NCBI RefSeq assembly: GCF_041022165.1
Contig: NZ_CP163302.1
Location: 992,001 to 1,056,000 of the forward strand
Source of the DNA: Sinomonas sp. P10A9
Lineage (GTDB): Bacteria > Actinomycetota > Actinomycetes > Actinomycetales > Micrococcaceae
Direction of reading: 5' to 3'
Length of the DNA stretch: 64,000 nucleotides
The stretch's first letter is position 1; each line of letters starts with the position of its first letter. This document shows positions 20,757-42,311 of the stretch, in pieces. The notes under the pieces were generated by a model. It did no database searches and had not been told where the DNA came from. It saw only the letters and a list, made by a program, of their open reading frames with translations. The position numbers were made by a program, and so were the translations under genes.

Positions 20757-20819
20757 CCCTCGGGTTGCAGGGAGGTGACTCCGCATCGTGGGGAGGTGAC
20801 TCCGCATCGTGGGGAGGTC
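20753..20819. repeat. 21-bp-period repeat array D
   Basis: GTGAC cores start at 20753, 20775 and 20796 and a truncated one at 20817, giving spacings of 22, 21 and 21 bp. The two central units share GGGAGGTGACTCCGCATCGT. The array fills the whole gap between the convergent cytosine deaminase and IclR genes and overlaps both stop codons. Confidence 0.8.
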
Positions 20820-23128: not shown

Positions 23129-23154
23129 GGGATAGAAACCACCTGAACTCAAGG

Positions 23155-23180
23155 GTTGCAATTAGTGCAACTCGGTTGCA
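23155..23180. promoter_or_regulatory. Operator palindrome GTTGCA-N5-TGCAAC before the MHS transporter
   Basis: GTTGCA ATTAG TGCAAC at 23155-23171 is a perfect 6+5+6 palindrome, followed by another half-site GTTGCA at 23175-23180. It lies 27 bp before the transporter start and downstream of IclR copy 2. The same palindrome occurs twice before the creatinase gene. Confidence 0.7.
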
Positions 23181-23256
23181 CCAGAATACGTGTGGTTCGC
23201 GTCACGAACAAGGGCTACCCGGGAGTTGCCCTTCCAGATCGTCCCTGAGCCCCTGC

Positions 23257-24042
23257 TCAGCCCGCCACGCGCTGTGCGGGGGCACCGCCGAGCCTGCGCG
23301 TGATGTCGGCAGCCGAATCGGCGCAGGCCTCGCCGAGGGCAGCGAGTTGCTCAGGGGACACGCGGAACCGCGGGGCCGAGACGAGGACTGCGGCGGTCAC
23401 GTCGCCGCGGTGGTCGAAGACGGGCGAGGAGACGCCGACCTCCTCGATCGAGGTCTCCCCGTAGTTGACGGCATAGCCCCTCGCGGTCGCCTCGGCGAGG
23501 CGGTCCGCGAAGGCGGCCAGGCCGGCGTCGTCCGTCTGGGTGTACGCGATCGTGCCGTCTGTCAGCAGGGTCTTCCGATGGGCGGCCGGCAGCGCCGCGA
23601 GGAAGACCTGGACGGAGGCCGAGAGCGCCGTCCGGTAGCGGGTGCCGAGGGAGGTGGTGTGCTTGACCAGATGTGGACTCGGCACCTGCTCCACGGACAC
23701 CGCATGGTGGCCGTTCCACAGCAGCAGCGCGCTCGTCTCCCCGGTCCGCTCGGCGAGGTCGCGCAGGACGGGCCGCGCGACGCGCCGCTCCTCGAGGTCG
23801 GCCAGAAGCGGCCCTGCGATGCCGATGACCCCGAGCCCGAGCCGGTACCGGCGCGTCACCGGGTCCCGTTCGACCACGTCCTCGGCCTCGAGTGTTGCAA
23901 GGATCCGCGAGACGGAACTCTTGTGCAGGCCAACGCGGGCCGCGATCTCCGTGACGCCCAGCATCGGCTCATCGACGCTGAAGCAGCGCAGCACCGCGAT
24001 CGCATTCGAGATCGGGGATGCGCCGCGAAGGTCCTCGGGCAT
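23257..24042 (-). CDS. IclR-family regulator, copy 2
   Basis: A 261-aa protein with the same two-domain layout as the copy at 20818-21636: winged helix SNAIAVLRCFSVDEPMLGVTEIAARVGLHKSSVSRILATLE, then the effector domain with NGHHAVSVEQVPSPHLVKHTTSLGTRY and YAVNYGETSIEEVGVSSPVFDHRGD. It follows the creatinase gene on the minus strand after a strong hairpin, so it probably has its own promoter. The closeness of the two copies suggests a recent duplication, with either redundant or heteromeric control of the creatinine genes. Confidence 0.88.
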   Translation of the reverse strand: MPEDLRGASPISNAIAVLRCFSVDEPMLGVTEIAARVGLHKSSVSRILATLEAEDVVERDPVTRRYRLGLGVIGIAGPLLADLEERRVARPVLRDLAERTGETSALLLWNGHHAVSVEQVPSPHLVKHTTSLGTRYRTALSASVQVFLAALPAAHRKTLLTDGTIAYTQTDDAGLAAFADRLAEATARGYAVNYGETSIEEVGVSSPVFDHRGDVTAAVLVSAPRFRVSPEQLAALGEACADSAADITRRLGGAPAQRVAG

Positions 24043-24076
24043 CGTCGCGTTCCTTTCCGTGGTCTGGGGGCAGACG

Positions 24077-24120
24077 ACGGCGGCGCCGCACCCCGCGTGG
24101 GCGAGGTGCGGCGCCGCCGT
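24077..24120 (-). terminator. Strong hairpin downstream of creatinase
   Basis: A perfect 16-bp stem, 24077-24092 with 24105-24120, around a 12-nt loop. It lies 96 bp beyond the creatinase stop on the minus strand and 35 bp before IclR copy 2. The sequence GACGACGGCGGCGCCGCACC is shared with the hairpin before IclR copy 1. Confidence 0.75.
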
Positions 24121-24215
24121 GCTTGCGCTCGCAGTCAGGGTCTGCAGTCCATCCGCGTGCGCGCTTCCGGGGCCGTCCGCGTGACGGAGCGGCCCCGGGG
24201 TCTGGACGCCGGGGA

Positions 24216-25475
24216 TCAGGCCTCGACGATGTTGTGCTCCGGGCCGAACCCGAACTTGGTGATGTTCTCGACCGAGTCCTCGCCGATCACGAGGATGTCG
24301 TGCTCGCGGTAGCCACCGGCGCCCGGGAGGCCGTCCGCGACCGTGATCATCGGCTCCATCGAGACGACCATGCCCGGCTCGAGCACCGTGTCGATGTCCT
24401 CGCGGAGCTCAAGGCCCGCCTCGCGGCCGTAGTAGTGGGAGAGGACGCCGAACGAGTGGCCGTAGCCGAACGTGCGGTTGGCCAGGAGGCCGTAGCCGAT
24501 GTAGATCTCGTTGAGCTCCGCGGCGATGTCCTTGCAGACCGCGCCCGGCTTGATGAGCTCGAGGCCGCGGCGGTGCACCTCGACGTTGATGTTCCACAGG
24601 CGCAGGCTCTCCTCGTCCGGCTGGCCGAGGAAGAGGGTGCGCTCGAGGGCCGTGTAGTAGCCGGAGGTCATCGGGAAGCAGTTCAGGGAGAGGATGTCGC
24701 CCTTCTCCAGCTTGCGGGTCGTGGCCCAGTTGTGGGCGCCGTCCGTGTTGATGCCGGACTGGAACCAGACCCAGGTGTCGCGGACTTCGCGGTGCGGGAA
24801 GGTCTTGGCGATCTCGTGGACCATGGCCTCGGTGCCGATGAGGGCGACCTCGTACTCGGTGATGCCCTCGCGGATCGCATTGCGGATGGCCTCGCCGCCG
24901 AGGTCGCCGATGCGGGCGCCGTGCTTGATGACCTCGATCTCTTCGGCCGACTTGAACATGCGCTGGCGCATGGCGTCCTGGGAGACGTCGAGGAGCTCGG
25001 CGCCCGGGAAGGCGGCGGCGATCTTCTCGCGGACCAGGGTCGGGAGGGCGTCGTCCTCGACGCCGAGGCGGGTGGCCTTGACGCCGCGCTGGCGCAGCGC
25101 CTCCTGCAGGCCGAAGAAGAAGTTGTCGCGGCGCCAGTCCGTGTAGACGATGTTCTCGCCGTACGAGGTGCGCCACGGCATGCCGGCGTCGATGTTCGCG
25201 GTGATGGTGACCGAGTCGTCGGCGGTGACGACCAGGGCGTAGTTGCGGCCGAACGTCGTGTAGAGGAAGTCCGAGTAGTACTTGATGCCGTGGTAGGAGG
25301 TCAGGATGACCGCGTCCAGGCCCTTGGCGGACATGATCTGGCGGAGGCCGGAGAGGCGACGCTCAAACTCCGCATCGGAGAACGTGAGCTGGCCCTTGGT
25401 GCCGTTGTGGAGCACCTTGAGGCGCTCGAGCTCGGCGACGTCGGTAACGGACGTGGGGTTCAGGTCGACGGACAT
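24216..25475 (-). CDS. Creatinase (creatine amidinohydrolase)
   Basis: A 419-aa pita-bread enzyme that hydrolyses creatine to sarcosine and urea (EC 3.5.3.3). Although it scores as an M24 peptidase relative, specific stretches match Pseudomonas creatinase as I remember it: ILTSYHGIKYYSDFLY, NIVYTDWRRDN, DTWVWFQSGINTDGAHN with the catalytic histidine at H248, GDILSLNCFPM, TFGYGHSFGVLSHYYGREAG and LPGAGGYREHDIL. The metal ligands of true M24 peptidases are not in place, as expected for creatinase. AAGGAG precedes ATG 25475. Two GTTGC palindromes lie 130-220 bp upstream. It follows creatininase, so the order matches the pathway creatinine, creatine, sarcosine. Confidence 0.93.
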   Translation of the reverse strand: MSVDLNPTSVTDVAELERLKVLHNGTKGQLTFSDAEFERRLSGLRQIMSAKGLDAVILTSYHGIKYYSDFLYTTFGRNYALVVTADDSVTITANIDAGMPWRTSYGENIVYTDWRRDNFFFGLQEALRQRGVKATRLGVEDDALPTLVREKIAAAFPGAELLDVSQDAMRQRMFKSAEEIEVIKHGARIGDLGGEAIRNAIREGITEYEVALIGTEAMVHEIAKTFPHREVRDTWVWFQSGINTDGAHNWATTRKLEKGDILSLNCFPMTSGYYTALERTLFLGQPDEESLRLWNINVEVHRRGLELIKPGAVCKDIAAELNEIYIGYGLLANRTFGYGHSFGVLSHYYGREAGLELREDIDTVLEPGMVVSMEPMITVADGLPGAGGYREHDILVIGEDSVENITKFGFGPEHNIVEA

Positions 25476-25603
25476 GGTGGGACTCCTTGTCTGGGGGTTC
25501 TGCGTGGGTTGGTGTCCTGGGCCTGGTCCGTGCTGCTCTGCGCGGACTGCTGTGTGGGGCTGTCCGCGGACTGCACTGTCAGGCTGTGACCGGTGAAATC
25601 TTG

Positions 25604-25620
25604 GTTGCGATAAACGCAAC
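25604..25620. promoter_or_regulatory. Operator palindrome GTTGCG-N5-CGCAAC before creatinase
   Basis: GTTGCG ATAAA CGCAAC is a perfect 6+5+6 palindrome in an AT-rich patch about 130 bp upstream of the creatinase start. A half-site GTTGCA follows at 25624-25629. Confidence 0.7.
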
Positions 25621-25676
25621 CTTGTTGCATCAAACTATCCGTGAATGGAATCACTGTCAAGCAATTGCCCAACTGC

Positions 25677-25693
25677 GTTGCATTCATTGCAAC
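25677..25693. promoter_or_regulatory. Second operator palindrome GTTGCA-N5-TGCAAC before creatinase
   Basis: GTTGCA TTCAT TGCAAC is a perfect palindrome immediately past the creatininase stop codon (25697). Its centre is 73 bp, about seven helical turns, from the palindrome at 25604, which would allow looping or cooperative binding. Confidence 0.7.
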
Positions 25694-25696
25694 TGC

Positions 25697-26470
25697 TCAG
25701 TTTCGGGGTGCGCGGATCTCCGCACCGATCTCGTCGGCGAGGGCCTTCGAGGTGCGTTCGAGGAGCAGCTCTCCCGCCGCTTCCGAGGCTGCCGCCGCCG
25801 ATGAGAGGCAGCCCGAGGCCGGTGTCAGTTCGCGACGCACGGGCAGCACGTCGTAGCGCGGCAGCAGCGCCGGCGGGAGGTCCATGACCTTGTCGAGGCG
25901 CACGAGCTCCGGGTGCAGGTGGAGCATGAGCGAGGTCTCGAGAACTCCGCCGTGCTCCACGTCCCAGCCGGGGAAGGCGCCCTGGTAGATCTCGTCGATC
26001 GTTTCCTGATCCACGAAGTCCCAGTAGGAGACGAGGACGGCCGAGACGTCCTGGCCCCGCGCGGCGAGCTCACTCGTGGCCTGCTCGGCGCCCTCGTAGA
26101 GGAACTGGTAGTTCTCGTAGTGGCCGTTGAGGAAGATGATCCGGCTGGCCCCGTGGCGCGCGAACTCGAGCACGAGCGTGCGGGCGATCGAGATGAGCGT
26201 CGTCGCGTCCAGACTCGTGGTGCCGCCGAGGTGATTGCCGCCGCCCGAGCGCTGCTGCGACTTGTACCCATACACGATCGGGGCCGCGACGAGTCCGTTG
26301 AGCGAGCGTGCGAGCTGCTCGCTCATCGCCTTCGAGAGCAGGACGTCCGTGTTGAGCGGGAGGTGCGGGCCGTGCTGCTCTACCGAGCCGACGGGGATGA
26401 TGATCGGGGCCCCGCCGGCGACGGCCTCGCGGTAGGTGAAGGCGTCGATCTCTTCCATGAAGACAGACAT
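25697..26470 (-). CDS. Creatininase (creatinine amidohydrolase)
   Basis: A 257-aa metal-dependent cyclic amidohydrolase (EC 3.5.2.10) converting creatinine to creatine. The metal ligands of Pseudomonas creatininase are all found: E31 and H33 in PVGSVEQHGPHLPLNTDVLL, D42, and H117/E119 in FLNGHYENYQ. Specific substrate-loop sequences YGYKSQQRSGGGNHLGGTTSLD, LVSYWDF and WDVEHGGVLETSLML distinguish it from MftE-type family members. GGAG precedes ATG 26470. It lies between the NCS1 permease gene and creatinase on the same strand, with a hairpin separating it from the permease. Confidence 0.93.
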   Translation of the reverse strand: MSVFMEEIDAFTYREAVAGGAPIIIPVGSVEQHGPHLPLNTDVLLSKAMSEQLARSLNGLVAAPIVYGYKSQQRSGGGNHLGGTTSLDATTLISIARTLVLEFARHGASRIIFLNGHYENYQFLYEGAEQATSELAARGQDVSAVLVSYWDFVDQETIDEIYQGAFPGWDVEHGGVLETSLMLHLHPELVRLDKVMDLPPALLPRYDVLPVRRELTPASGCLSSAAAASEAAGELLLERTSKALADEIGAEIRAPRN

Positions 26471-26512
26471 GGGGATTCTCCTAGGTGTCGGAACACAGGG
26501 GTCAGAACGCAG

Positions 26513-26543
26513 AGGGCCGGCCCGAAGGGTGGGCCGGCCCTCA
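26513..26543 (-). terminator. Hairpin between permease and creatininase genes
   Basis: GAGGGCCGGCCC (26513-26524) pairs perfectly with GGGCCGGCCCTC (26532-26543). It could end the permease transcript or act as a partial terminator setting the permease/enzyme ratio. Confidence 0.6.
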
Positions 26544-26562
26544 GCGTGTGGTTCGTGGCAGG

Positions 26563-28161: not shown

Positions 28162-28230
28162 GTGAGACTGCTTTCTTGAAGGGGACCGCTGGGGGGAGCG
28201 AGCCGGCTTGGTTTCAAGCGTAGGTGTGGG

Positions 28231-28303
28231 GTGAGTCACCTCATAGACTCTTTCTGTCGCCTACCCATGAGTCATCGGGCGACTATCTGTCTCCTATGAG
28301 GTG
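28231..28303. promoter_or_regulatory. Nested palindromes between permease and pucR-type gene
   Basis: CACCTCATAG (28237-28246) and CTATGAGGTG (28294-28303) form a perfect 10-bp inverted repeat 47 bp apart. Inside it lie GTCGCC (28256-28261) / GGCGAC (28278-28283) with almost the same centre, and the palindromes GTGAGTCAC (28231-28239) and ATGAGTCAT (28267-28275). This region separates two divergent genes, so it is probably a large operator for the PucR protein or a co-regulator. Confidence 0.6.
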
Positions 28304-28312
28304 CGGTTGCCA

Positions 28313-29818
28313 ATGTCTCTTCCCCTGAGCGAAATCCTTGCTGGCGGTGTGCTCTCCTTGGGTGCGCCCGTCGTGATCGGCGGAGCGTCCGCCGTTGGCC
28401 GGGCACGTGTCCGATGGGTCCATTCGAGCGAGGTGCTCGAGATCGCTCCGCTGCTCTCCGGCGGGGAGCTGCTGCTCACCGGAGGCGCGGCGCTGCTGGC
28501 GCTCAAGCCCGCAGCACAGGTGGAATATGTGTGGAGCCTCGCGTCCCGACGGGTCGCCGCGCTTGCCGTCGAGACCGCCGGCACCGGGCGCCATCTGCCC
28601 GCCGAGCTGGTTGCCGCCGCCGACGAGGCGGGGCTCCCCCTCGTCGAGCTGCGCCAGGTGGTGCCGTTCGTCGAGGTCGCCGAGGCCGTGAACCGGCGGA
28701 TCGTCTCGGGCCAGGTGAATGCGCTTCAGATTGCCGACCGGCTGTCGCAGGACCTCACCGAGCGGATTGCGAGCTCTGGCGCCCAGCTCAGCCCGCTCGT
28801 CGCGCTCATCGCCGAGACCCTCGGGGTGTTCGTCCGTGTGGTTGACACGCGGGGCTCGCTGCTCGCCGTCGCCGGTCCCGAGCCGATGGAGGGTGCCCAC
28901 GGCCCGGAGACCGAACTCGCGGTAGGAGGGATCGGCGTCGCCCGCCTTGAACTCATCGGCGGCCCGGCAGCGGACGTCGAGCTGCTCGAGACGGTGATCG
29001 CCCGGGTGCGGAGCATCGTGGCGCTTGCCCTCGCGCAGCAGCACCGGCCGAGTCTGGCGCGGCTCGCCGAAGACGAGCTGCTGAGGCTCATCGGAGCCGG
29101 TGGGGGAGGCGACCGCCTCGTCGAGCTGTGCCAGGCGGCGGGGATCGGGCCCGAGCAGCCTGTCGTCATGGCCGTGGTGCGGCGGCCCGCCGAGGGATCG
29201 GCGGACATCGAGCAGCGTGCCCGTCAGGCCCTGCCCTCGGCTCGGCTGATCGTGGACGGCGCGTGGGTGGACATGCTCATCCCGCTCCCCGCACCCAGCC
29301 ATCATGCGGAGCGCGAGCTCCTCCTGGGGGAGCTGAGGCAGGCTGTGTCCCGCGCTGGACTCACGGGTGCCCTCGGGCCGACGGCGGCAACCATCCGCCA
29401 GGCGGCCTTCTCGCTCGCGGAGGCGCGGGTGACGTGGCGGCTGGGCCGCTCGTCTAAATGGACGGACGCGATCCATGACGCCTCTGACTTCCTCGTCGAG
29501 CGCACGGCCGAGCGTTCGCTCCCACGCGGCGTCGTGGACGCCATCGTGGAGGAGGCGCTCGGTGAACTCATCAGGCTTGACCAGCGCAACGGCGGCGAAC
29601 TGGTCCGTACCCTCGACGTGTGGATCGCGTCCGGCTGCAATGCGACCGAGTCTGCCGAGATCCTCTTCCTCGAACGGCAGTCGCTGCACAAGCGGCTGCG
29701 CCGCATCTTCGGCGCGATCGGCGGCGATCCGCGCGGACGGGGCAAACTCGGGGGTCTGGCCTTTGCGGCCAAGCTCGTGCGCGGCAACGCACAACTGCGG
29801 GAGGATCTCCGTCCGTGA
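28313..29818 (+). CDS. PucR-family transcriptional regulator
   Basis: A 501-aa regulator with the PucR N-terminal ligand-sensing domain (RWVHSSEVLEIAPLLSGGELLLTGG), a central region containing the GGDEF-like segment, and a C-terminal helix-turn-helix of the HTH_30 class (TLDVWIASGCNATESAEILFLERQSLHKRLRRIFGAIGGDP). PucR-type proteins control purine, ureide and amine catabolism and usually sense a pathway metabolite. ATG 28313 is preferred over GTG 28301, because 28301 lies inside the inverted repeat and GAGG is correctly placed for 28313. Divergence from the NCS1 permease makes that gene its likely target. Confidence 0.85.
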   Translation: MSLPLSEILAGGVLSLGAPVVIGGASAVGRARVRWVHSSEVLEIAPLLSGGELLLTGGAALLALKPAAQVEYVWSLASRRVAALAVETAGTGRHLPAELVAAADEAGLPLVELRQVVPFVEVAEAVNRRIVSGQVNALQIADRLSQDLTERIASSGAQLSPLVALIAETLGVFVRVVDTRGSLLAVAGPEPMEGAHGPETELAVGGIGVARLELIGGPAADVELLETVIARVRSIVALALAQQHRPSLARLAEDELLRLIGAGGGGDRLVELCQAAGIGPEQPVVMAVVRRPAEGSADIEQRARQALPSARLIVDGAWVDMLIPLPAPSHHAERELLLGELRQAVSRAGLTGALGPTAATIRQAAFSLAEARVTWRLGRSSKWTDAIHDASDFLVERTAERSLPRGVVDAIVEEALGELIRLDQRNGGELVRTLDVWIASGCNATESAEILFLERQSLHKRLRRIFGAIGGDPRGRGKLGGLAFAAKLVRGNAQLREDLRP

Positions 29819-29885
29819 GGCCACCGTCCGCGACGGCGGCCCGCGTTCCCGGGCGTCCTGGTACGTGGCGCGGGAGGCACACGTC

Positions 29886-29895
29886 TGATATATCT
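29886..29895. promoter_or_regulatory. TGATATATCA-type operator before GntR copy 1
   Basis: TGATATATCT at 29886-29895, nine of ten positions of the palindrome TGATATATCA, 41 bp before the GntR start. Similar sites precede purU/dmgO, mscR and the second GntR/glyA promoter region. Confidence 0.6.
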
Positions 29896-29935
29896 ATGGG
29901 AGCCACTCCGGGTGGCTGGACCGGACGGAGGCTTC

Positions 29936-30598
29936 ATGTCGGGCGGAAGAACTGCCAATGCGGCGGGCCGCACGCTCGCGGAGCACGCGTACCTCGAGCT
30001 GCGTGAGCGCATCATCGACATGCGACTGCGCCCGGGGTCGGCTCTCGATGAGGAAGAGCTCATGAGGGAGCTCGGCGTGGGCCGGACCCCGATGCGTGAG
30101 GCCGTCAAGCGGCTCGAATCGGACCGCATGCTCACCGTCTACCCGAGGCGCGGGACGATCGTCTCCGACGTCAACATCAAGGATCTGCGCGCGATCTCCG
30201 ACGCCCGCCGTGTGCTCGAGGCCTTCGCCGCCAGGCGGGCTGCCGAGCAGGTCACCGATGAGGACCGGGTGCTCCTGCGTGCGTGCCTGGACGATCTCGC
30301 CCGGGACGGCGCCACCTCCAACGTGGACGCCATGGACGTCGACGAGCGCATCCACCGCACGGTCTACACGATCATGCGCAACACGTACGTCGAGGCGACC
30401 CTCCTGCAGTACTTCAACCTGTCGCAGCGCATGTGGAACTTCGTGCTGGCGGGGCTGGCTCCGATCACGGCCAATGTCCACGAGCACACGGACCTCCTGA
30501 CGGCGATCATGGACGGCGATCCTGACCGCGCGGCCGCCCTTGCAGAGCAGCATGTGACGCACTTCGAGGACCTCGTCCGGAACGCTCTGATCCGCTGA
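29936..30598 (+). CDS. GntR-family regulator, FCD (FadR) subfamily, copy 1
   Basis: A 220-aa protein with an N-terminal winged helix (LAEHAYLELRERIIDMRLRPGSALDEEELMRELGVGRTPMREAVKRLE) and a C-terminal all-helical FCD ligand domain. The metal-binding Asp/His set is visible (DVDERIHRTVYTIMR, HEHTDLLTAI, EQHVTHFEDL). CGGAGG five bases upstream fixes ATG 29936; GTG 29912 is less likely. A TGATATATCT site in its own promoter suggests autoregulation. It converges on the dimethylglycine oxidase gene and is separated from it by a strong hairpin. Confidence 0.88.
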   Translation: MSGGRTANAAGRTLAEHAYLELRERIIDMRLRPGSALDEEELMRELGVGRTPMREAVKRLESDRMLTVYPRRGTIVSDVNIKDLRAISDARRVLEAFAARRAAEQVTDEDRVLLRACLDDLARDGATSNVDAMDVDERIHRTVYTIMRNTYVEATLLQYFNLSQRMWNFVLAGLAPITANVHEHTDLLTAIMDGDPDRAAALAEQHVTHFEDLVRNALIR

Positions 30599-30673
30599 TC
30601 CGGCTGATCGGCTGATCCGGGCCAGACCGGGCCGGCCTGACCTCCCGAGGCCGTGACGCAGCCGGACGACGGC

Positions 30674-30714
30674 GGGCCCCGCCTCACCGGGACAGTGCCG
30701 GTGAGTCGGGGCCC
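30674..30714. terminator. Bidirectional hairpin between GntR copy 1 and dimethylglycine oxidase
   Basis: Arms 30674-30690 and 30698-30714 form two 8-bp helices (GGGCCCCG/CGGGGCCC and CTCACCGG/CCGGTGAG) with one mismatch around a 7-nt loop, between convergent genes. Confidence 0.8.
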
Positions 30715-30734
30715 GACTCGTGCGTCGTGGTGCC

Positions 30735-34192
<3,458 letters not shown>

Positions 34193-34264
34193 GGGAGATC
34201 CTTCGGGGTCTTCGATCCGTGGCCTCCGGGAGGCCGGTCCTATCCGGTTGCATTCGCATACAAC

Positions 34265-34274
34265 TGATATATGA
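34265..34274. promoter_or_regulatory. TGATATATCA-type operator before purU/dmg
   Basis: TGATATATGA, nine of ten positions of the palindrome, 73 bp upstream of the purU start. Next to it at 34247 is a degenerate GTTGCA half-site. Confidence 0.5.
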
Positions 34275-34322
34275 CGACGGTAGTGGTCTGGATCACGATC
34301 GGTCAAGGGTTCCTTCGAGGGT

Positions 34323-34386
34323 CTTGACGGCTGCTGTGAGATGAGTCACTGTTGTGAATGTCGAAATGAGTTGCGCTAATCGCAAT
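34323..34386 (+). promoter_or_regulatory. Promoter module of the betaine oxygenase operon
   Basis: Contains CTTGAC at 34323-34328 (-35-like), the palindrome ATGAGTCAC at 34341-34349, CACTGTTGTG, and the operator GTTGCG CTAAT CGCAAT at 34370-34386 (one mismatch to a perfect palindrome), 38 bp before the reductase ATG. The whole block is repeated with many identities at 42247-42311 before the choline operon. Confidence 0.65.
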
Positions 34387-34423
34387 TCTCGAAGAATGTA
34401 CCCGCCGTCACATCAGGAGCGCA

Positions 34424-35623
34424 ATGAAGACGCTGGCCATCGTTGGCTCATCCCTCGCTGGGCTTGCCGCCGCCCGTGCCGCCCGCGCGCAGGGATTCGA
34501 CGGCCGACTCGTTCTCGTGGGTGACGAGCCCCACCGCCCCTACGATCGGCCGCCCCTGAGCAAGGACTTCCTGAGCGGGAAGATCGGCGCCGAGGCACTG
34601 CGCCTCGAGGACGAGGGCGAGGACCTCGCTGCCGAATGGATGCTCGGCGTGCGGGCCGCTGCCCTCGACGCCGGGGGACGCGCCGTCGTCCTCGACGGCG
34701 GACGGCGGCTGGAGGCAGACGGCGTCGTCCTCGCCACCGGATCGACGGCGCGCACGCTGCCGCAGTTCGCCGGCTGCGAGAACGTCCATACCCTGCGGAC
34801 GCTCGACGACGCGCGGCTGCTCCGCGAGGAGCTCCGCCCGGGTGCGCGGCTGCTCGTGGTCGGCGCGGGACTCATCGGCGCGGAGGTGGCTTCCACGGCG
34901 CGAACCGCCGGAGCGGACGTCGTCATCCTCGCGGGAGCAGGCATCCCGCTGGTCCGAAGCGTCGGTGCGCAGATGGGCGGTGTCCTCGCCGGCCTCCACG
35001 CGGCGCACGGCGTCGAGCTCGTCCAGGGTGCGGCCATCGCGGGTGTCCGGACCGACGGCACACGACTCGTCGCCGTCGAGCTGACGGACGGGCGGGTGAT
35101 CGAGCCCGACGCCGTGCTGGTCGCCGTCGGCGGGGAGGCGGCGACGGGCTGGCTTGCGGGCTCCGGCGTGCAGGTGGCCGACGGCGTCGTCTGCGATGAC
35201 CACGGCCGCACGAGCCTGCCGGGCGTCGTCGCCGTAGGCGACTGCGCGGCGTGGCGCGACCCCCATCTGGGCCGGCCGCATCGGCTCGGCCACTGGAACG
35301 CCGCCCTCGCCCAGCCAGCCCGCGCAGTCAGGGCCCTTCTGGGGGCCACGGATCCTGAGCCGGCCAAGGCGCTCCCGTACTTCTGGTCAGACCAGTACGG
35401 CATCCGCATCCAGTTCAGCGGACATGCCGAGTTGGCCGACCGGATCGAGATTGAGGCCGGAACCGCGCAGGACCATAGCTTCCTCGCCGCCTACTACCGG
35501 GGGGATGCCCCCGTCGGCCTCCTCAGCAGCGGCCAGCCGAGGCTCTTCGCCAAACGGCGCCGCGACGTCGAACGCTCACAGCACCTCCACGCCGCAGAGA
35601 CGCTCGCTGCGCTCGCTGGCTAG
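34424..35623 (+). CDS. FAD-dependent ferredoxin reductase
   Basis: A 399-aa NADH:ferredoxin reductase of the rhodocoxin/putidaredoxin reductase type. The FAD site is IVGSSLAGLAAARAARA at residue 6, followed by YDRPPLSKDFLSG; the NADH site is LLVVGAGLIGAEVASTA near residue 146, and the flavin C-motif VVAVGDCAAWRDP near 270. C-terminal domain YFWSDQYGIRIQFSGHA is typical. It is the first gene of an operon with a Rieske oxygenase and a Rieske ferredoxin and should supply their electrons. The usual fused CntB/GbcB-type reductase is absent. Confidence 0.9.
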   Translation: MKTLAIVGSSLAGLAAARAARAQGFDGRLVLVGDEPHRPYDRPPLSKDFLSGKIGAEALRLEDEGEDLAAEWMLGVRAAALDAGGRAVVLDGGRRLEADGVVLATGSTARTLPQFAGCENVHTLRTLDDARLLREELRPGARLLVVGAGLIGAEVASTARTAGADVVILAGAGIPLVRSVGAQMGGVLAGLHAAHGVELVQGAAIAGVRTDGTRLVAVELTDGRVIEPDAVLVAVGGEAATGWLAGSGVQVADGVVCDDHGRTSLPGVVAVGDCAAWRDPHLGRPHRLGHWNAALAQPARAVRALLGATDPEPAKALPYFWSDQYGIRIQFSGHAELADRIEIEAGTAQDHSFLAAYYRGDAPVGLLSSGQPRLFAKRRRDVERSQHLHAAETLAALAG

Positions 35624-35680
35624 CCCCAAGACTTCCCCACCCTTTCCGACATTCAACCAACCACCCACACAGGAGTAGAC

Positions 35681-36850
35681 ATGACGACTGCACCCGAGAA
35701 GATCGAGGCACCCAAGGGCGGAGTGAAGATCTCCGAGAGCCTCATCGCCACCCTCCCCGGGTCCGCTTACGTCGACGAGGCCGTCTTCCGGGCCGAGCAG
35801 GAGCGGATCTTCGAGCAGATGTGGTTCTGCGCGGTGCGCTCGGCCGACCTCGAAGGGCCCGGCACGTTCAAGACGGTCCAGGTCGGGCGCGAGAGTGTGA
35901 TCGTGAGCCGCAACCGCAAGGGCGAGATCCGGGCATTCTTCAACATCTGTCGCCACCGCGGGGTGAAGCTCTGCATGGAGGACTCGGGCAAGGCCGAGCG
36001 CTCGTTCCAGTGCCCGTACCACGCCTGGACCTACGACCTCGACGGCAAGCTCATCGCGGCGCCGAACCTCACGAAGATGCCGGACATCGACCGTCAGGAG
36101 TACGGTCTGGTCAAGGTCCACATCCGCGAGTACCTCGGGTACGTGTGGCTGTGCCTGGCCGAGGAGCCTCCCTCGTTCGAGGACGAGGTCATGGGCGCGA
36201 TCGAGACGCGCCTCGGCGACGTGCACCGGATCGACGGCTACGACGTGGCGAACCTGAGTCTGGGCCGCCGCATCACGTATGACGTGAAGGCCAACTGGAA
36301 GCTCATCATCGAGAACTTCATGGAGTGCTACCACTGCGCCACCATCCACCCCGAGCTGACCGAGGTGCTCCCGGAGTTCGCCGACGGCCTGGCAGCGCAG
36401 TACTTCGTGGGCCACGGCGCCGAGTTCGGCGACGAGGTCAAGGGCTTCACCATCGACGGCTCCGAGGGCCTGGACGTGATCCCCGGTGTCGCCGAGGACC
36501 AGGACCGCCGCTACTACGCGATCACCATCAAGCCGACCGTGTTCATCAACCTCGTCCCGGACCACGTCATCATCCACCGCATGTTCCCCATGGCCGCGGA
36601 CCGCACGATCGTGGAGTGCGACTGGCTCTACCTCCCCCACGTGGTCGAGAGCGGCAAGGACCTCGACGCCTCGGTGGAGCTGTTCAACCGCGTGAACCTG
36701 CAGGACTTCGACGCGTGCGAGCGCACCCAGCCCGGCATGGCCTCGCGCATCTACGCCAACGGCGGCGTGCTCGTCCCGAGCGAGCACCACATCGGCGAGT
36801 TCCACGATTGGGTGGCGTCCATGGTCGGTGACGTCATCCCGACGAACTGA
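35681..36850 (+). CDS. Rieske oxygenase alpha subunit, probable glycine betaine monooxygenase
   Basis: A 389-aa oxygenase. The Rieske [2Fe-2S] ligands are C90/H92 (CRHRG) and C111/H114 (CPYHAW). The mononuclear iron is held by H218 and H223 in ENFMECYHCATIHPEL and by D342 in the LQDFDACE motif. The residue bridging the two centres is Glu (E215) rather than the Asp of aromatic dioxygenases; I recall this from carnitine monooxygenase CntA, which supports a quaternary-amine substrate. With BetA/BetB upstream in the pathway and dimethylglycine oxidase next door, betaine to dimethylglycine plus formaldehyde is the likely reaction. Naming it an aromatic dioxygenase would be misleading. Confidence 0.85.
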   Translation: MTTAPEKIEAPKGGVKISESLIATLPGSAYVDEAVFRAEQERIFEQMWFCAVRSADLEGPGTFKTVQVGRESVIVSRNRKGEIRAFFNICRHRGVKLCMEDSGKAERSFQCPYHAWTYDLDGKLIAAPNLTKMPDIDRQEYGLVKVHIREYLGYVWLCLAEEPPSFEDEVMGAIETRLGDVHRIDGYDVANLSLGRRITYDVKANWKLIIENFMECYHCATIHPELTEVLPEFADGLAAQYFVGHGAEFGDEVKGFTIDGSEGLDVIPGVAEDQDRRYYAITIKPTVFINLVPDHVIIHRMFPMAADRTIVECDWLYLPHVVESGKDLDASVELFNRVNLQDFDACERTQPGMASRIYANGGVLVPSEHHIGEFHDWVASMVGDVIPTN

Positions 36851-36897
36851 CGCCGCCACGAGAACGACCGAGATCGACCGAGTGAAGGAGTTGCGCC

Positions 36898-37260
36898 ATG
36901 AGTGATGGAATGACGCGCATCTGCCCCCTGTCCCAGCTCGTCCGCGGGGACGCGATGCGCCTGGAGACGCGGCCGCCGATCGCCCTCTTCCACACGGAGG
37001 AGGGGGAACTGTTCGCGATCGACGACACCTGCACGCACCAGGACGCGTCGCTGGCCGACGGGTATGTGGAGGGCTGCGAGGTCGAATGCCCCCTGCACGC
37101 CTCCAAGTTCAACCTGCGGACGGGGACCGTGGATGCCCCGCCGGCGAAGCTGCCGGTCCGCGTCCATGCGGTTGAGGTGCGCGATGGGGACATCTACCTG
37201 AAGGAGTCCGACGAGATTCCGAACCTTCCGCCGGGGATCACAGTTGACGGCCACGTCTGA
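36898..37260 (+). CDS. Rieske-type ferredoxin
   Basis: A 120-aa small electron carrier with one Rieske [2Fe-2S] cluster: DTCTHQDASLADG and VECPLHASKFNL give the CxH and CxxH ligands. This type normally shuttles electrons from a flavoprotein reductase to a Rieske oxygenase, and both partners are encoded immediately upstream. ATG 36898 has AAGGAG. The stop (37260) is followed seven bases later by the MHS transporter start, so the gene is in the middle of the operon. Confidence 0.92.
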   Translation: MSDGMTRICPLSQLVRGDAMRLETRPPIALFHTEEGELFAIDDTCTHQDASLADGYVEGCEVECPLHASKFNLRTGTVDAPPAKLPVRVHAVEVRDGDIYLKESDEIPNLPPGITVDGHV

Positions 37261-37266
37261 GGAGTG

Positions 37267-38958
37267 ATGACAATGAGAGGCAGTCAGACAGAACAGGACA
37301 TCTCCGTGACGAATGTGCCGGGGGCAGGAGCGTGGCAAGGCCGGATCACGTTCCGGAAGCGCCGGCTCCGGTTCGGCGACGTCAACGTCGTCGACCGCGC
37401 CATGCTGCGGCGGGCGGTCGGCGGAGCCGTCGTGGGCAACACCATGGAGTGGTACGACGTCGGTGTGTTCGGCTACCTCATCACCACGATGGGACCGGTC
37501 TTCCTGCCCGAGGCAGACAAAACGGTCCAGACCCTCTTCCTGCTCGGGACGTTCGCCGCGACGTTCGTGGCGCGCCCCTTCGGCGGCGTCTTCTTCGGGT
37601 GGCTGGGCGACAGGATCGGCAGGCAGAGGGTCCTCGCGGCGACGCTCATCATGATGTCCGCGGCGACCTTCGCCCTGGGCCTCCTGCCGGGGTATGCCCA
37701 GATCGGCGTGGGGGCTGCCGTCCTCCTCGTGGTGGTCAAGCTCCTCCAGGGGTTCTCGACCGGCGGCGAATACGCGGGCGCCACGACCTTCGTGAGCGAG
37801 TACGCGGCCGACCGCAGGAGGGGCTACTTCGCGAGCTTCCTGGACATGGGCTCCTACCTCGGCTTCGCCGCCGGTGCGGCCCTCGTCTCGGTCCTCCAGC
37901 TCGTGCTCGGCCAGGCGGCGATGGGAGAGTTCGGCTGGCGGATCCCCTTCCTCGTGGCGGGACCGCTCGGGGCGATCGCCATCTACTTCCGGCTCAGGAT
38001 TGAGGAGAGTCCCACCTTCCAGGCCGCCCTGGACACGCAGGAGCGTGCGGTCAACGAGCGTGCCGCGGCAGACGCTACGGCCCGGAGGGGCCCGTTCGCG
38101 GTGGTCCGCGCCTACTGGCGTCCGATCCTCGTGTCCATGGTCGTCGTCGCCGCAGCCAACACCGTGGGCTATGCCCTGACCTCCTACATGCCCACGTACC
38201 TGACGGAGTCGAAGGGCTACGACGAGGTCCACGGGACCCTCCTGACCATCCCGGTGCTGCTCGTCATGAGCCTGTGCATCCCCCTGGCCGGGCGGCTGTC
38301 GGACAAGATCGGCCGTAGGCCCGTCCTGTGGATCGGCGCCCTCAGCACGGTTATCCTCGCGATCCCCGCGTTCCTCCTCGTGGGCCTCGGCACGGTGCCG
38401 GCGACGCTCGCTGGCCTGGCCTTGGTCGCGTTCCCGGTGACGTTCTACGTGCCGATTCTCGCGTCCACTCTGCCCGCCCAGTTCCCGACCTCCTGCCGGT
38501 ACTTCAGCATGGGGATCGCCTACAACTTCTCCGTGGCGATCTTCGGGGGGACAACGCCCGTCATCGTCGACGGACTCATCCAGGGCACAGGCAACGACAT
38601 GATGCCCGCGTACTACCTCATGGGCACGTCCATCGTGGGTGCGCTCGCGGTCTTCTTCCTGCGGGAGCCCGCGGGGCGGCCGCTGCCGGGTTCGATGCCG
38701 AGCGTTGACACGCCCGCGGAGGCGCGCGCCGTCGTCGAACATCAGGAGGAGGATCCGCGGATCGATCTGGAGCAGATGCCGCTCAGCCGGGTGCCTGTCG
38801 CGGTGGCGCACGACGGCGCGGCGGTGCAACTCCCGCTCGACGACCCGTACGCCCTCGCGGCGGCCGAGGGCGAGGGGATTGACCTGGAGGCCACGGCCCT
38901 CGAGGCCCGGTCCTGCGGTGAGCAGCCGGTCGCAACGGGGCTGCGCCCAGTGGCCTGA
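37267..38958 (+). CDS. MHS-family transporter with long C-terminal tail
   Basis: A 563-aa MFS symporter. Helix 1 signature VGNTMEWYDVGVFGYL, loop GWLGDRIGRQRVL, LLQGFSTGGEYAGATTFVSEYAADRR and RLSDKIGRRPVLW mark it as a ProP/MHS protein, of the kind that takes up betaine, proline or related zwitterions. After the last helix (ALAVFFLREPAGRPLPG) there is a hydrophilic tail of about 90 residues, acidic and without the coiled coil of E. coli ProP. GAGGAG suits ATG 37267; GTG 37264 is possible. It is the last gene of the betaine-oxygenase operon, so betaine or dimethylglycine uptake is likely (inference). Confidence 0.85.
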   Translation: MTMRGSQTEQDISVTNVPGAGAWQGRITFRKRRLRFGDVNVVDRAMLRRAVGGAVVGNTMEWYDVGVFGYLITTMGPVFLPEADKTVQTLFLLGTFAATFVARPFGGVFFGWLGDRIGRQRVLAATLIMMSAATFALGLLPGYAQIGVGAAVLLVVVKLLQGFSTGGEYAGATTFVSEYAADRRRGYFASFLDMGSYLGFAAGAALVSVLQLVLGQAAMGEFGWRIPFLVAGPLGAIAIYFRLRIEESPTFQAALDTQERAVNERAAADATARRGPFAVVRAYWRPILVSMVVVAAANTVGYALTSYMPTYLTESKGYDEVHGTLLTIPVLLVMSLCIPLAGRLSDKIGRRPVLWIGALSTVILAIPAFLLVGLGTVPATLAGLALVAFPVTFYVPILASTLPAQFPTSCRYFSMGIAYNFSVAIFGGTTPVIVDGLIQGTGNDMMPAYYLMGTSIVGALAVFFLREPAGRPLPGSMPSVDTPAEARAVVEHQEEDPRIDLEQMPLSRVPVAVAHDGAAVQLPLDDPYALAAAEGEGIDLEATALEARSCGEQPVATGLRPVA

Positions 38959-38995
38959 GACCCGGCCGCTCGGTCCGTCCACTTGGTCCGGCCGC

Positions 38996-39808
38996 TCAGG
39001 AGCGATCCTGGGCGGCCGGACCTCCCATGAGCTCGGTGATCTCCGCGCCAGCGGCGACGATTGCCTTGATCAACCCGGGGTCCTTCTCGGGATCGAAGCG
39101 GAACGCCGGGCCCGAGATGCTCACCGAGCCGATCACGTCCCCGGTATGGCCGAACACGGGCGCGGCGATTGCGTTGAGGCCGTCTTCGAGTTCCCCGCGG
39201 GTCGCGGCGTAGCCCAACCGCACAATCTCCGGGAGTTCGGCCTCGAGCCGGTCCCTCGTGAGCGTGTGCGAGGTGAGCGGCTCGGGCGGCGCCTCGCGCA
39301 GCGCCTGGTCCCGTTGGGCTGGCGGCATGTAGGCGAGGAAGACCTTCCCGCTCGAGGTCGCGTGCAGAGGCGTGAGGTTCCCAATCCAGTCGAAGCTCGC
39401 GACGTTCGCCGCGCCCATCGCCTGGTCGACGTTCACGGCGAAGGACGACCGGAGCACCGCGAGATTGACGGTCTCGCCGAACTGCTGCGCGAGGTCTTCG
39501 AGGACCGGCCGCGCGGTGTGGACGAGGCTGAGGCGCCGCGGGATCGAGCTCGCGATGCGCAGCAGCCCGACTCCGAGCTGGTATCTGCCCCGCCGTGAGC
39601 TCTGCTGCACGAAGCCGTGGGTCTCGAGGGCGGCGAGAATGCGTGACGCCGTCGACTTGTGCACGCCCATGCGCTCGGCCATGTCGCCGACGGCCGCGCT
39701 GCCCTCTTCTGCGAGGACCTCGAGCGCCTGCACAACGCGCTCGACCGAATGAACACCGTTGGCTGAACGTCCCCCGTCGGGATCCTCCGGATCCGATGAC
39801 TTGCTCAT
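38996..39808 (-). CDS. IclR-family regulator, third type
   Basis: A 270-aa IclR protein with winged helix VERVVQALEVLAEEGSAAVGDMAERMGVHKSTASRILAALE and effector domain (LHATSSGKVFLAYMPPAQRD, YAATRGELEDGLNAIAAPVFGHTGDV). It is clearly diverged from the two near-identical IclR copies at 20818 and 23257, so it may sense a different ligand. It converges on the betaine-oxygenase operon (38 bp between stops) and has the 21-bp repeat arrays and a terminator upstream of its start. Confidence 0.88.
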   Translation of the reverse strand: MSKSSDPEDPDGGRSANGVHSVERVVQALEVLAEEGSAAVGDMAERMGVHKSTASRILAALETHGFVQQSSRRGRYQLGVGLLRIASSIPRRLSLVHTARPVLEDLAQQFGETVNLAVLRSSFAVNVDQAMGAANVASFDWIGNLTPLHATSSGKVFLAYMPPAQRDQALREAPPEPLTSHTLTRDRLEAELPEIVRLGYAATRGELEDGLNAIAAPVFGHTGDVIGSVSISGPAFRFDPEKDPGLIKAIVAAGAEITELMGGPAAQDRS

Positions 39809-39889
39809 GGGCCGATTGTGCCAGAGAACACCGGCACCCTCGGGAGGCAAGGAAGGAACGATGCCCCGCTCGCCAGGCAAGCTGCGTGC

Positions 39890-40028
39890 CGAAGTCACCC
39901 CAGGTGGACGCCAAGTCACCCCGTGCGGGCGCGAAGTCACCCCCGGGGAACGCGAAGTCACCCCGTGTAGGCGCGAGGTCACCCCGTGGGAACAGCGAGG
40001 TCACCCCGTGTGGGCTTGAGATCACCCC
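39890..40028. repeat. 21-bp-period repeat array A (seven units)
   Basis: Seven copies of the core CGAAGTCACCCC (variants CCAAGTC, CGAGGTC, TGAGATC) begin at 39890, 39911, 39932, 39953, 39974, 39996 and 40017: six steps of 21, 21, 21, 21, 22 and 21 bp. The roughly nine bases between cores vary. The array lies just upstream of the third IclR gene and is inverted relative to array B on the other side of the terminator. Confidence 0.9.
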
Positions 40029-40075
40029 TCCGGGAGTTTGAAGATCAGGTAAACAGCGTGCTGCTGTGTCAACGC

Positions 40076-40123
40076 ACGACGACGGCCGGTGCCTTCCGCA
40101 GGGAAAGCACCGGCCGTCGTCGT
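40076..40123 (-). terminator. Strong hairpin between the two repeat arrays
   Basis: A perfect 17-bp stem, 40076-40092 with 40107-40123, extended inward by CTTCC/GGAAA-type pairing. It lies 120 bp past the stop of the metallo-beta-lactamase gene on the minus strand and is flanked on both sides by inverted repeat arrays. Confidence 0.8.
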
Positions 40124-40164
40124 CACCCACGAGGTTCTATCCGGATCGCATGTCTCGTCCGTAC

Positions 40165-40239
40165 GGGGTGACCTCCGGGTCGTACGGGGTGACTTCGCGC
40201 CTACACGGGGTGACCTCGCGTCCACACGGGGTGACTTCG
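40165..40239. repeat. 21-bp-period repeat array B (four units)
   Basis: Four copies of the core GGGGTGACYTCG begin at 40165, 40186, 40207 and 40228, exactly 21 bp apart, in the orientation opposite to array A. The array abuts the stop of the metallo-beta-lactamase gene (40245). The whole gap 39809-40244 contains only arrays A and B, the hairpin and the IclR promoter. Confidence 0.9.
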
Positions 40240-40244
40240 GCCTG

Positions 40245-40886
40245 TCAGTGGCCGCGCGCGATCCATTCCTGCAGGTGCGGCGCCTCGGCGCCGACGGTCG
40301 TCGAGTCGCCGTGGCCCGTGTTGACCTCAGTGTCCCCGGGGAGCGTGAGCAGCCGGGTCCGGATGGACTCGATGATCGTGGGGAAATCCGAGTAGGACCG
40401 TCCGGTCGCCCCGGGACCACCCTGGAACAGGGTGTCCCCGGTGAACACGGTCCCCAGGCTCTCGGCCCGGAAGCACACGGACCCGGGGGAGTGGCCCGGC
40501 GTGTGTATGGCCACCAGCTCCGAGCCCGCGACCGAGAAGACCTCCCCGTCCGCAATCTCCGCGTCCGGCGCGGTGCCCGGATACACCGCGTCCCACAGCA
40601 TGAGGTCGGCCGGGTGGAGGAGCACCGGCGCGCCTACCTTGTCCGCGAACTCTCTGGCGTGGCGGATGTGGTCGTCGTGGCCGTGAGTGAGGAGCACCGC
40701 GGTTACGGTGCGGTCGCCGACTGCGTCGGCGACAGCGCCGGCGTCGTGCGCGGGGTCGATCACGATCGCCTCCGCGTCGTCGCCCACGATCCAGACGTTG
40801 TTGTCCACGTCCCACGTGCCGCCGTCGAGGGAGAACGTGCCGGACGTGACGAGGCGCTCGATCCTGGCCCTGCCTTCGGCGCCCAT
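40245..40886 (-). CDS. Metallo-beta-lactamase fold hydrolase, probable formaldehyde-pathway partner of MscR
   Basis: A 213-aa glyoxalase II-like hydrolase. The metal motif THGHDDH is at 67-73, with further ligands in HTPGHSPGSVCF, FTGDTLFQGG and VNTGHGDST. Its ATG shares a base with the mscR stop (TGATG), so the two proteins are made in a fixed ratio. A similar pairing occurs in Mycobacterium tuberculosis (Rv2259-Rv2260, from memory). By analogy with glyoxalase II it may hydrolyse S-formylmycothiol or another mycothiol thioester; that is inference. The hairpin and arrays follow its stop. Confidence 0.85.
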   Translation of the reverse strand: MGAEGRARIERLVTSGTFSLDGGTWDVDNNVWIVGDDAEAIVIDPAHDAGAVADAVGDRTVTAVLLTHGHDDHIRHAREFADKVGAPVLLHPADLMLWDAVYPGTAPDAEIADGEVFSVAGSELVAIHTPGHSPGSVCFRAESLGTVFTGDTLFQGGPGATGRSYSDFPTIIESIRTRLLTLPGDTEVNTGHGDSTTVGAEAPHLQEWIARGH

Positions 40887-41995
40887 CAGATCTCCACCAC
40901 GGAGCGCAGGACAGTGCCAGAGTGCATCTTCTCGAAGGCCGCCTCGACGTCGCCGAGGCCGATGCGCTCGGTCACGAACGCATCCAGCGGGAGGCGTCCG
41001 AGCTTGAACTGCTCGACGAGCATCGGGAAGTCGCGGCTCGGGAGGCAGTCGCCGTACCACGAGGACTTGAGCGAGCCGCCGCGGCCGAACACATCCAGGA
41101 GCGGCAGGTCGAGCGTCATCTCGGGCGTCGGGACGCCTACGAGGACCACACGGCCGGCCAGGTCGCGCGCGTAGAAGGCCTGCTTGTACGTCTCGGGGCG
41201 GCCGACGGCGTCGATGACCACGTCCGCGCCGAAGCCGCCCGTGAGGTCGCGGATCGCCTCGACAGGGTCCGTCTCACGCGAGACGACGCCGTGAGTCGCG
41301 CCGAGGCTCTTGGCGAGCTCCACCTTGGCGGGATCGAGGTCCACGGCGATGATTGTCGTCGCGCCCGCGAGCTTCGCGCCCGCGATCGCCGCGATGCCCA
41401 CGCCGCCGCAGCCGATCACGGCCACGGACTCCCCGCGCTTGACCTCGCCGGTGTTGATGGTGGCGCCGATGCCGGCCATGATCCCGCAGCCGAGCAGGCC
41501 GACCGCGGCGGGATCGACGTCGTCGTCGATCTTGGTGCACTGTCCGGCCGCGACGAGGGTCTTCTCGGCGAAGGAGCCGATGCCGAGCGCCGCGGTCAGC
41601 GGGGTGCCGTCGGCGAGGGTCATCTTCTGGGTCGCGTTGTGCGTGGCGAAGCAGTACTGCGGCTGGCCCTTTGCGCAGGCCCGGCATTGCCCGCACACCG
41701 CGCGCCAGTTCAGAATCACACGGTCGCCGGGCTTGAGGTCCGTCACGTCCGGGCCGACCGAGCTGACCACCGCGGTGGACTCGTGGCCGAGGAGGTAGGG
41801 GTAGTCGTTGCCGATCCCGCCGAGCTTGTAGTGCAGGTCCGTGTGGCAGACGCCGCACGTGAGGACGTCAACCAGCGCCTCGCCTGGGCCGGGGTCCGGG
41901 ACCAGGATCGTCTCGACGGTCGCCGGCGCGTTCTTCTCGCGCACGACGACGGCCCTCACCTCGTGCATGTTCGTTCCGCGGGGTGCGTTGGTCAT
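40886..41995 (-). CDS. mscR: S-(hydroxymethyl)mycothiol dehydrogenase (mycothiol-dependent formaldehyde dehydrogenase)
   Basis: A 369-aa zinc alcohol dehydrogenase that oxidises the formaldehyde-mycothiol adduct and can also reduce S-nitrosomycothiol. Catalytic zinc ligands are in [12 protein letters not shown] and GHESTAVV, the structural zinc cysteines in [15 protein letters not shown], and the NAD site in [21 protein letters not shown]. The [10 protein letters not shown] and [15 protein letters not shown] segments are characteristic of the MscR/AdhE group. Here it would remove formaldehyde released by betaine, dimethylglycine and sarcosine demethylation. It is divergent from betA; TGATATATCA lies 149 bp upstream. 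Confidence 0.92.
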
Positions 41996-42143
41996 GGAAA
42001 TCCTCCTGTGGTGTTCAAACGTGGGCCGTGCCCATCATGACCAGCGCCGCTCTCGCGTGTCCACGTGGCCCGCGGCATGAGACGCCGGCACCCCGACATG
42101 GTCGTATGGCCGGCCCTAGGACCGGTCAGCGCTGGTATAGATC

Positions 42144-42153
42144 TGATATATCA
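42144..42153. promoter_or_regulatory. Perfect TGATATATCA operator between mscR and betA
   Basis: TGATATATCA is a perfect 10-bp palindrome. It lies on the mscR side of a 382-bp divergent intergenic region (41996-42377) which otherwise holds the choline promoter module and no gene. Confidence 0.65.
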
Positions 42154-42246
42154 CCACAGCCTACGGGCGGAAGTGCGGGCGGTCAATGGGCATCGCCTGC
42201 ATCACGTTTCGATCTCGTGAAATTCTTCCGGGCGCCCAGAAAGGTG

Positions 42247-42311
42247 CTTGACAGCCGTCTGTGACGTGACTCACTGTTGTGCATGCCGAATCACGTTGCA
42301 GCTTGTGCAAT
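42247..42311 (+). promoter_or_regulatory. Promoter module of the choline operon
   Basis: CTTGAC at 42247-42252, palindrome GTGACTCAC at 42266-42274, CACTGTTGTG, and operator GTTGCA GCTTG TGCAAT at 42295-42311. Order and spacing match the module at 34323-34386; the two palindromes are separated by the same 20 bp in both. Confidence 0.65.

Follow-up and report, generated by a model that had tools for sequence, protein, structure and literature searches.

Operators of the layout GTT-11-AAC form a subgroup within group 1 of the IclR family, and three-box sites have been predicted in 32 orthologous groups (main text of Suvorova and Gelfand 2021, PMC8222616). According to the same text, PcaU, PobR and HmgR have three-box IclR operators made of a palindrome plus an external direct box, while GenR of Corynebacterium glutamicum, an IclR protein of the 3-hydroxybenzoate/gentisate pathway, has the palindrome ATTCC-N7(5)-GGAAT. 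In C. glutamicum ATCC 14067, the creatine and creatinine genes are under repression by AmtR, a nitrogen regulator of the TetR family, as far as the main text of PMC8864220 goes. In this work, a 64,000-nucleotide stretch of the Sinomonas sp. P10A9 genome (contig NZ_CP163302.1, positions 992,001 to 1,056,000; hereafter the window) was analysed. It contains five copies of a 17-bp palindrome (sites 1 to 5) near predicted creatine, betaine and choline genes, together with genes for three IclR proteins, IclR1, IclR2 and IclR3 (Table 1).

The palindromes resemble the GTT-11-AAC subgroup in their 17-bp length, their outer GTT...AAC and the 11 bp between; sites 1-3 fit this layout exactly and sites 4-5 read GTT-11-AAT. 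The published consensus GTTYC...GRAAC, as given in the main text of PMC8222616, has Y at position 4 and R at position 14, where sites 1-5 have G and C; in the relatives these letters were set by the search pattern, so that the departure concerns sites 1-5. Published correlations between IclR residues and bases were considered as the cause of the G at position 4 and rejected, since the main text of PMC8222616 ties His27 to positions 10/22, which on our count is the third letter and not the fourth. The likeness to PcaU, PobR and HmgR lies in the palindrome and its external box, and the difference in box sequence and pathways. GenR shares the 5-N7-5 palindrome and differs in half-site letters and pathway, and AmtR shares the repression of actinobacterial creatine genes but belongs to another family. 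The string "creatin" is absent from the main text of PMC8222616, "IclR" occurs 0 times in that of PMC8864220, and in the available text of PMC3141670 IclR and creatin(e/ase) words both occur, in unrelated places. No IclR regulator of creatinase or creatine genes was found in a literature search largely without subscription papers, which is weak evidence of novelty. The operator type is a known one (GTT-11-AAC, three-box), and its use for creatine genes may be new.

A scan of the window located three exact copies of the palindrome (sites 1-3) and two copies with one mismatch (sites 4 and 5), as the sequence-only reading had reported. All five stand upstream of likely ATG starts, namely those of the MHS transporter gene, the creatinase gene (two sites), gbcB, the first gene of the betaine oxygenase operon, and betA, also in agreement with that reading. 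Sites 2 and 5 overlap mechanical open reading frames (ORFs) only because these are extended to TTG/GTG codons further upstream; translation probably begins at the ATGs 25475 and 42378. In the 4,289,660-base genome, GTTGCRNNNNNYGCAAC has 3 exact matches, every one in this stretch. At up to one mismatch there are 24 genomic sites, 5 of them inside the same 19 kb, and the 8-base core TTGC-N7-GCAA, which is identical at all five sites, occurs 15 times in 4.29 Mb, five of these being sites 1-5. The reversed-pattern controls (65 and 36) exceeded the real counts of 24 and 15, so the point is the local clustering and not a genome-wide excess. The Poisson probability of at least five sites in 19,157 bp was about 1e-7 for the one-mismatch sites and about 1e-8 for the core, both post hoc values since the stretch was picked by its sites. 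The sequence-only reading had called such copies very unlikely by chance, and this held for the clustering of 0- and 1-mismatch copies, which carry the signal. It did not hold at up to two mismatches, where the window shows no enrichment (11 matches, when the shuffles average 8.87 and 27 of 100 reach 11), and the two-mismatch motif was rejected as noise.

Outside the window, a crude test based on ORFs and third-position GC content (GC3) placed 3 of 10 core matches in coding-like ORFs; the same test also placed window sites 2 and 5 in ORFs. Among the 19 one-mismatch matches outside the window, 7 of the 10 with loci were coding-like. Pfam names beside three of the non-window core matches revealed no further methylamine target; the neighbours were TetR plus a dicarboxylate symporter, an ArsR-type regulator plus MFS, and a sigma factor plus DUF4192.

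Sites 1-3 are very probably operators for IclR-type repressors of creatine-breakdown genes in Sinomonas and other actinobacteria. The evidence comes from 35 named loci around IclR1 relatives, counted after four distant matches (L069-L072, 27-34% identity) had been dropped. They represent Sinomonas, Arthrobacter, Glutamicibacter, Citricoccus, Streptomyces, Actinomadura, Blastococcus, Geodermatophilus, Planosporangium, Saccharomonospora, Prauserella, Nocardioidaceae and Nostocoides. GTTGC-N7-GCAAC occurs in 52 copies in 30 of the 35 loci. With spacers of 0-6 and 8-25 there are 0-5 copies, and putting the five letters into the 29 other possible orders yields 0.41 copies on average. GTTGC ranks third of 1024 five-mers, behind two that consist of C and G only. 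Of the 35 loci, 31 contain a creatinase gene, and in 25 of these 31 a perfect site lies no more than 300 bp upstream of the creatinase or MHS gene. Two Streptomyces loci have neither a creatinase gene nor a perfect site. Sixteen further Micrococcaceae loci were the best IclR matches outside Sinomonas (G050, at a contig end, was left out), and 15 of them have a perfect site before creatinase or an MHS-creatinase unit, the exception being G057. Among 15 Sinomonas genomes, 12 have an IclR1-type gene (E <= 1e-60), each with a perfect site within 3 kb; of the 45 perfect sites in these 15 genomes, 25 lie within 6 kb of an IclR1-type gene. Since the motif tracks IclR1-type genes across many genera, conservation strongly supports reading the palindromes as IclR operators. 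The pattern GTTGCR-N5-YGCAAC originally given is conserved in its outer boxes, GTTGC-N7-GCAAC, but not in its inner letters: the exact R...Y form was found in 11 of the 15 Sinomonas genomes, and G008, G013 and G014 have an IclR1-type gene and a perfect site without it. To judge from these genomes, the inner R...Y bases are not required.

The full operator is GCAAC-N3-GTTGC-N7-GCAAC, placed just after the -10 box. In the 35 loci, the everted pair GCAAC-N3-GTTGC occurs 38 times in 24 loci, with 0-3 copies at other spacings, and the direct pair GCAAC-N15-GCAAC (either strand) 44 times in 31 loci, with 0-5 at other spacings; the exceptions are N7 (8 in 8 loci) and N16 (14 in 4 loci). Genome-wide, the three-box pattern at 0-1 mismatch matches sites 1-3 only, sites 1 and 2 exactly and site 3 with one mismatch. 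Removal of those at least 90% identical reduced 55 three-box stretches to 50. As these were picked by the pattern, the boxes are fixed by selection and only the flanks are informative; some are upstream second sites rather than promoters. An exact TTGAC was found in the -35 area of 41 of the 50, and in at least 25, counted from the commonest hexamers listed, a TAnnnT hexamer precedes the first box by 3 bp, others being shifted by 1-2 bases. In most of these stretches, the boxes directly follow the promoter and so cover the start region, a position that suggests repression. In Sinomonas loci with a pair of sites, the centres of O1 and O2 are 71-73 bp apart, although the spacers differ. Outside Sinomonas the distance is 96-161 bp, and the idea that a fixed 73-bp spacing is a general sign of looping was therefore rejected.

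Between the -35 and -10 boxes of the same stretches, a GTGA-N6/7-CAC motif was observed in 35 of 50 (shuffle mean 0.14, maximum 2), and also in the four window promoters of Table 1. It resembles a CRP/GlxR site, and the genome has two strong Crp-type HTH matches (70.9 and 63.2 bits). A second, global regulator may share these promoters.

IclR1, IclR2 and IclR3 all have HTH_IclR and IclR_C domains above the Pfam cut-off. IclR2 is 81% and IclR3 33% identical to IclR1, whose closest named relative is from Sinomonas sp. ASV486 (Micrococcaceae; 98% identical). A tree of 99 IclR proteins places IclR1 and IclR2 together in an 18-row group with 17 Sinomonas members (support 93/96). IclR3 sits in a different clade (100/100), and the two clades join on long branches. 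By their sequences, IclR1 and IclR2 are close duplicates and IclR3 belongs to a distant clade. In G002-G004, a single IclR gene follows MHS and creatinase in one unit, while the window has two IclR copies in two units (20818-24042); from this difference, operator and IclR gene appear to have been duplicated together within Sinomonas. The closest solved relative of IclR1 by sequence is 3OBF (E 4e-60), the effector domain of an IclR protein covering residues 82-254 only, whose effector is not named in the search output.

Sites 4 and 5 look like a related but separate operator class that tracks IclR3 and not IclR1/IclR2. Both end in GCAAT, show no GCAAC third box and have an additional GTTKCAYATRGCGA-like element upstream. 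In 120 sampled Micrococcaceae genomes, the best gbcB matches were found in 15, each of them with an IclR3 gene as well (a second gbcB copy in G096 was excluded and the orientation of loci taken into account). The proximal gbcB site is present at one mismatch in 9 of the 15, all nine ending in GCAAT, and at two mismatches in the other 6; most of these promoters have TTGAC, a CAnnCT-like -10 and the GTTKCAYATRGCGA-like element before the site, without the third box. Genomes G009 and G043, whose best IclR1 matches (E about 1e-31, 33-34%) are IclR3 itself, keep the gbcB site and are among the nine. In G028, G057 and G081, which have an IclR1-type gene and no IclR3 at E <= 1e-50, no [GA]TTGC-N7-GCAA[CT] was found in the 12-16 kb around gbcB-gbcA. 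A second site of the type GTTYCG-N5-NNCAAC was observed about 139-184 bp before the proximal gbcB site in L125-L128, L131 and L134-L137, with a divergent Rieske ferredoxin gene at it in the three mapped genomes G009, G020 and G096; in the window, none lies within 350 bp of gbcB.

These distributions bear on the proposal of the sequence-only reading that all five sites mark one regulon, with the IclR proteins encoded at 20818 and 23257 as the leading candidates to read it. IclR proteins as binders fit the motif's association with IclR1-type genes, but the assignment of these two to every site was not supported, as sites 4-5 look like a class of their own that follows IclR3. A single methylamine regulon, in which IclR1/IclR2, and possibly IclR3, bind all five sites and creatine, betaine and choline breakdown are switched together, would account for the common 8-base core, the shared recognition-helix motif and the location within one 19-kb neighbourhood. 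The pathways also converge, betaine and creatine both leading to sarcosine. This is nevertheless unlikely, because the class differences (final T, missing third box, extra upstream element) recur in relatives and because the gbcB site persists without IclR1/IclR2 and is absent where IclR1 occurs without IclR3, albeit in few independent lineages.

Instead, sites 1-3 are probably read by IclR1/IclR2 as repressors of the creatine genes, and sites 4-5 by IclR3 for betaine and choline. What has been observed is where the sites lie, how they are conserved and that they co-occur with the regulators; from this we infer the following scheme of binding, repression, looping, autoregulation and effectors. 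IclR1 and IclR2 are encoded inside the units they would control, O1/O2-creatinase-IclR1 and O3-MHS-IclR2. The main operators start some 3 bp past the -10 box and would therefore cover the transcription start, so that binding of an IclR dimer or tetramer there would keep RNA polymerase out. O2, 73 bp away beyond the creatinase promoter, could strengthen repression in Sinomonas, perhaps by looping. A metabolite of the creatine pathway, with creatine as first and sarcosine as second guess, would release the repressor, and release would also raise the repressor's own synthesis, giving a self-limiting loop. Sites 4-5 (GTTGC-N7-GCAAT plus the GTTKCAYATRGCGA-like element) would be read mainly by IclR3, controlling betaine and choline breakdown.

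Several observations weigh against this assignment. The recognition helices are nearly identical (GLHKSSVSR in IclR1, GLHKSSASR in IclR2, GVHKSTASR in IclR3), so the split between regulators may leak and cross-talk is possible; across all classes, 108 of the 109 IclR proteins aligned share HKS[ST]xSR. Six of the 31 creatinase loci lack a nearby site (three Saccharomonospora with none, three Prauserella with one about 2.6 kb away), and outside Sinomonas the helical phase of paired sites is not constant. G028, G057 and G081 belong to one genus and perhaps reflect one event, which leaves few independent events, and G057 also lacks the creatinase site. The strict one-mismatch contrast is 9/15 against 0/3. 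A betA site within 350 bp was found in only 4 of 16 loci (window, G005, G004 and G050), G006 having a GCAAG variant. Finally, an alcohol dehydrogenase gene of G009, a genome that lacks IclR1, is preceded by a perfect site ending in GCAAC, so that the final T is not absolute for IclR3.

It is rather doubtful that the IclR proteins are activators which would act from O2 upstream and use the operator at the start site for autoregulation. O2 does lie upstream of the -35 box, and the three-box IclR regulators PcaU and PobR are activators; here, the operator position suggests repression. In most of the 50 three-box stretches the boxes directly follow the promoter, a typical repression position, and MHS has a single site, at the start region. 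It is very improbable that a non-IclR regulator of the cluster, PucR (28301) or GntR (29912), reads the sites: these genes are nearby and recur in many of the loci, but in L237 and L241, which have a perfect site and an IclR gene beside creatinase, nothing in 14 kb matches the PucR or GntR of the window, and the three-box GTT-11-AAC layout is a published IclR pattern. That the palindromes are chance occurrences, for which the unenriched two-mismatch level might speak, is hardly credible given their genomic clustering and their conservation across genera.

Table 1. Operators, predicted promoters and genes of the locus (window coordinates).
Feature	Coordinates	Strand	Description
IclR2 regulator	20818..21636	minus	81% identical to IclR1; downstream of MHS
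MHS/MFS transporter	21761..23128 (ATG 23128)	minus	MFS_1 above Pfam cut-off
Site 1 (O3)	23155..23171		Perfect GTTGC-N7-GCAAC before MHS transporter
Site 1 three-box operator	23155-23179	minus	GCAAC-CGA-GTTGC-N7-GCAAC
Predicted core promoter, MHS-IclR2 unit	23183..23211	minus	TTGTTC-N17-TATTCT, ends 3 bp before three-box operator; read from sequence
IclR1 regulator	23257..24042	minus	Downstream of creatinase
Creatinase (M24-type hydrolase)	24216..25475	minus	
Site 2 (O1)	25604..25620		Perfect palindrome downstream of creatinase -10; three-box operator 25604-25628, minus strand
Predicted creatinase promoter	25632..25660	minus	TTGACA-N17-TAGTTT, between O1 and O2
Site 3 with partial third box	25670-25693		Third box on promoter side
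Site 3 (O2)	25677..25693		Perfect palindrome upstream of creatinase promoter; centre 73 bp from O1
Creatininase	25697..26470	minus	TIGR04448, 325 bits (cut-off 235)
Predicted gbcB promoter	34324..34352	plus	TTGACG-N17-CACTGT
Site 4	34370..34386		GTTGCGCTAATCGCAAT before gbcB; putative IclR3-class operator, extended element 34351-34386
GbcB-like ferredoxin reductase	34424..35623	plus	First gene of betaine oxygenase operon
GbcA-like Rieske oxygenase	35681..36850	plus	Best NCBIfam match GbcA, 228 bits, below cut-off 670
Rieske ferredoxin	36898-37260	plus	
ProP-like transporter	37264-38958	plus	
IclR3	38996..39982	minus	Distant paralogue (33% identical to IclR1); putative regulator acting at sites 4 and 5
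Predicted betA promoter	42248..42277	plus	TTGACA-N18-CACTGT
Site 5	42295..42311		GTTGCAGCTTGTGCAAT before betA; putative IclR3-class operator, extended element 42276-42311
Choline dehydrogenase BetA	42378..44054	plus	TIGR01810, 843 bits (cut-off 732)

Read along the minus strand, the locus runs from an NCS1 transporter and creatininase through sites 3 and 2, creatinase, IclR1 and site 1 to MHS and IclR2. On the plus strand, site 4 is followed by gbcB-gbcA-ferredoxin-ProP and site 5 by betA; between the two lies the IclR3 gene, encoded on the minus strand. The presumed creatinase takes its name from the sequence-only reading and the creatininase neighbour; its NCBIfam matches, Xaa-Pro dipeptidase and ectoine hydrolase, are far below cut-off. 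The MHS transporter scores 394 bits against the metabolite/H+ symporter model TIGR00883, below its cut-off of 443. PucR (28301-29818) and GntR (29912-30598) separate the creatine genes from a sarcosine/dimethylglycine dehydrogenase-like gene, which a GntR gene also adjoins in G057 and G081, both without IclR3.

In sister Sinomonas species, a fourth IclR (IclR4; 52-55% identical to IclR2) is encoded close to pairs of sites that combine a TTTGCT/TTTGCN-type half with GCAAC, the members of a pair being 66-68 bp apart. They are located at L104:2139-2223 and 7775-7791 in G005, beside hydantoinase A/B and isochorismatase-family genes, and similar ones occur in G002-G004 and G006. This locus perhaps serves the methylhydantoin route of creatinine breakdown under a sister regulator. 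Tentatively, paralogous IclR repressors with near-identical helices (HKS[ST]xSR) might split N-methyl-amine catabolism into insulated regulons, one for creatine, one for betaine/choline and one of IclR4 near the hydantoinase genes with their TTTGCT-N5-AGCAAC sites. The separation would then depend on how the boxes are arranged and on the bases beside them, and not on the core half-site.

Taken together, a regulator and its operator are proposed for the genes of creatinase and creatine transport in several actinobacterial families. According to PMC7568399, enzymatic assays of creatinine make use of creatinase, so that a creatine-responsive IclR protein with a compact operator would, if confirmed, be a candidate biosensor. 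The paralogue set makes operator discrimination by IclR proteins directly testable, and if the regulons are indeed insulated, this locus would offer a natural system for how IclR paralogues avoid cross-talk.

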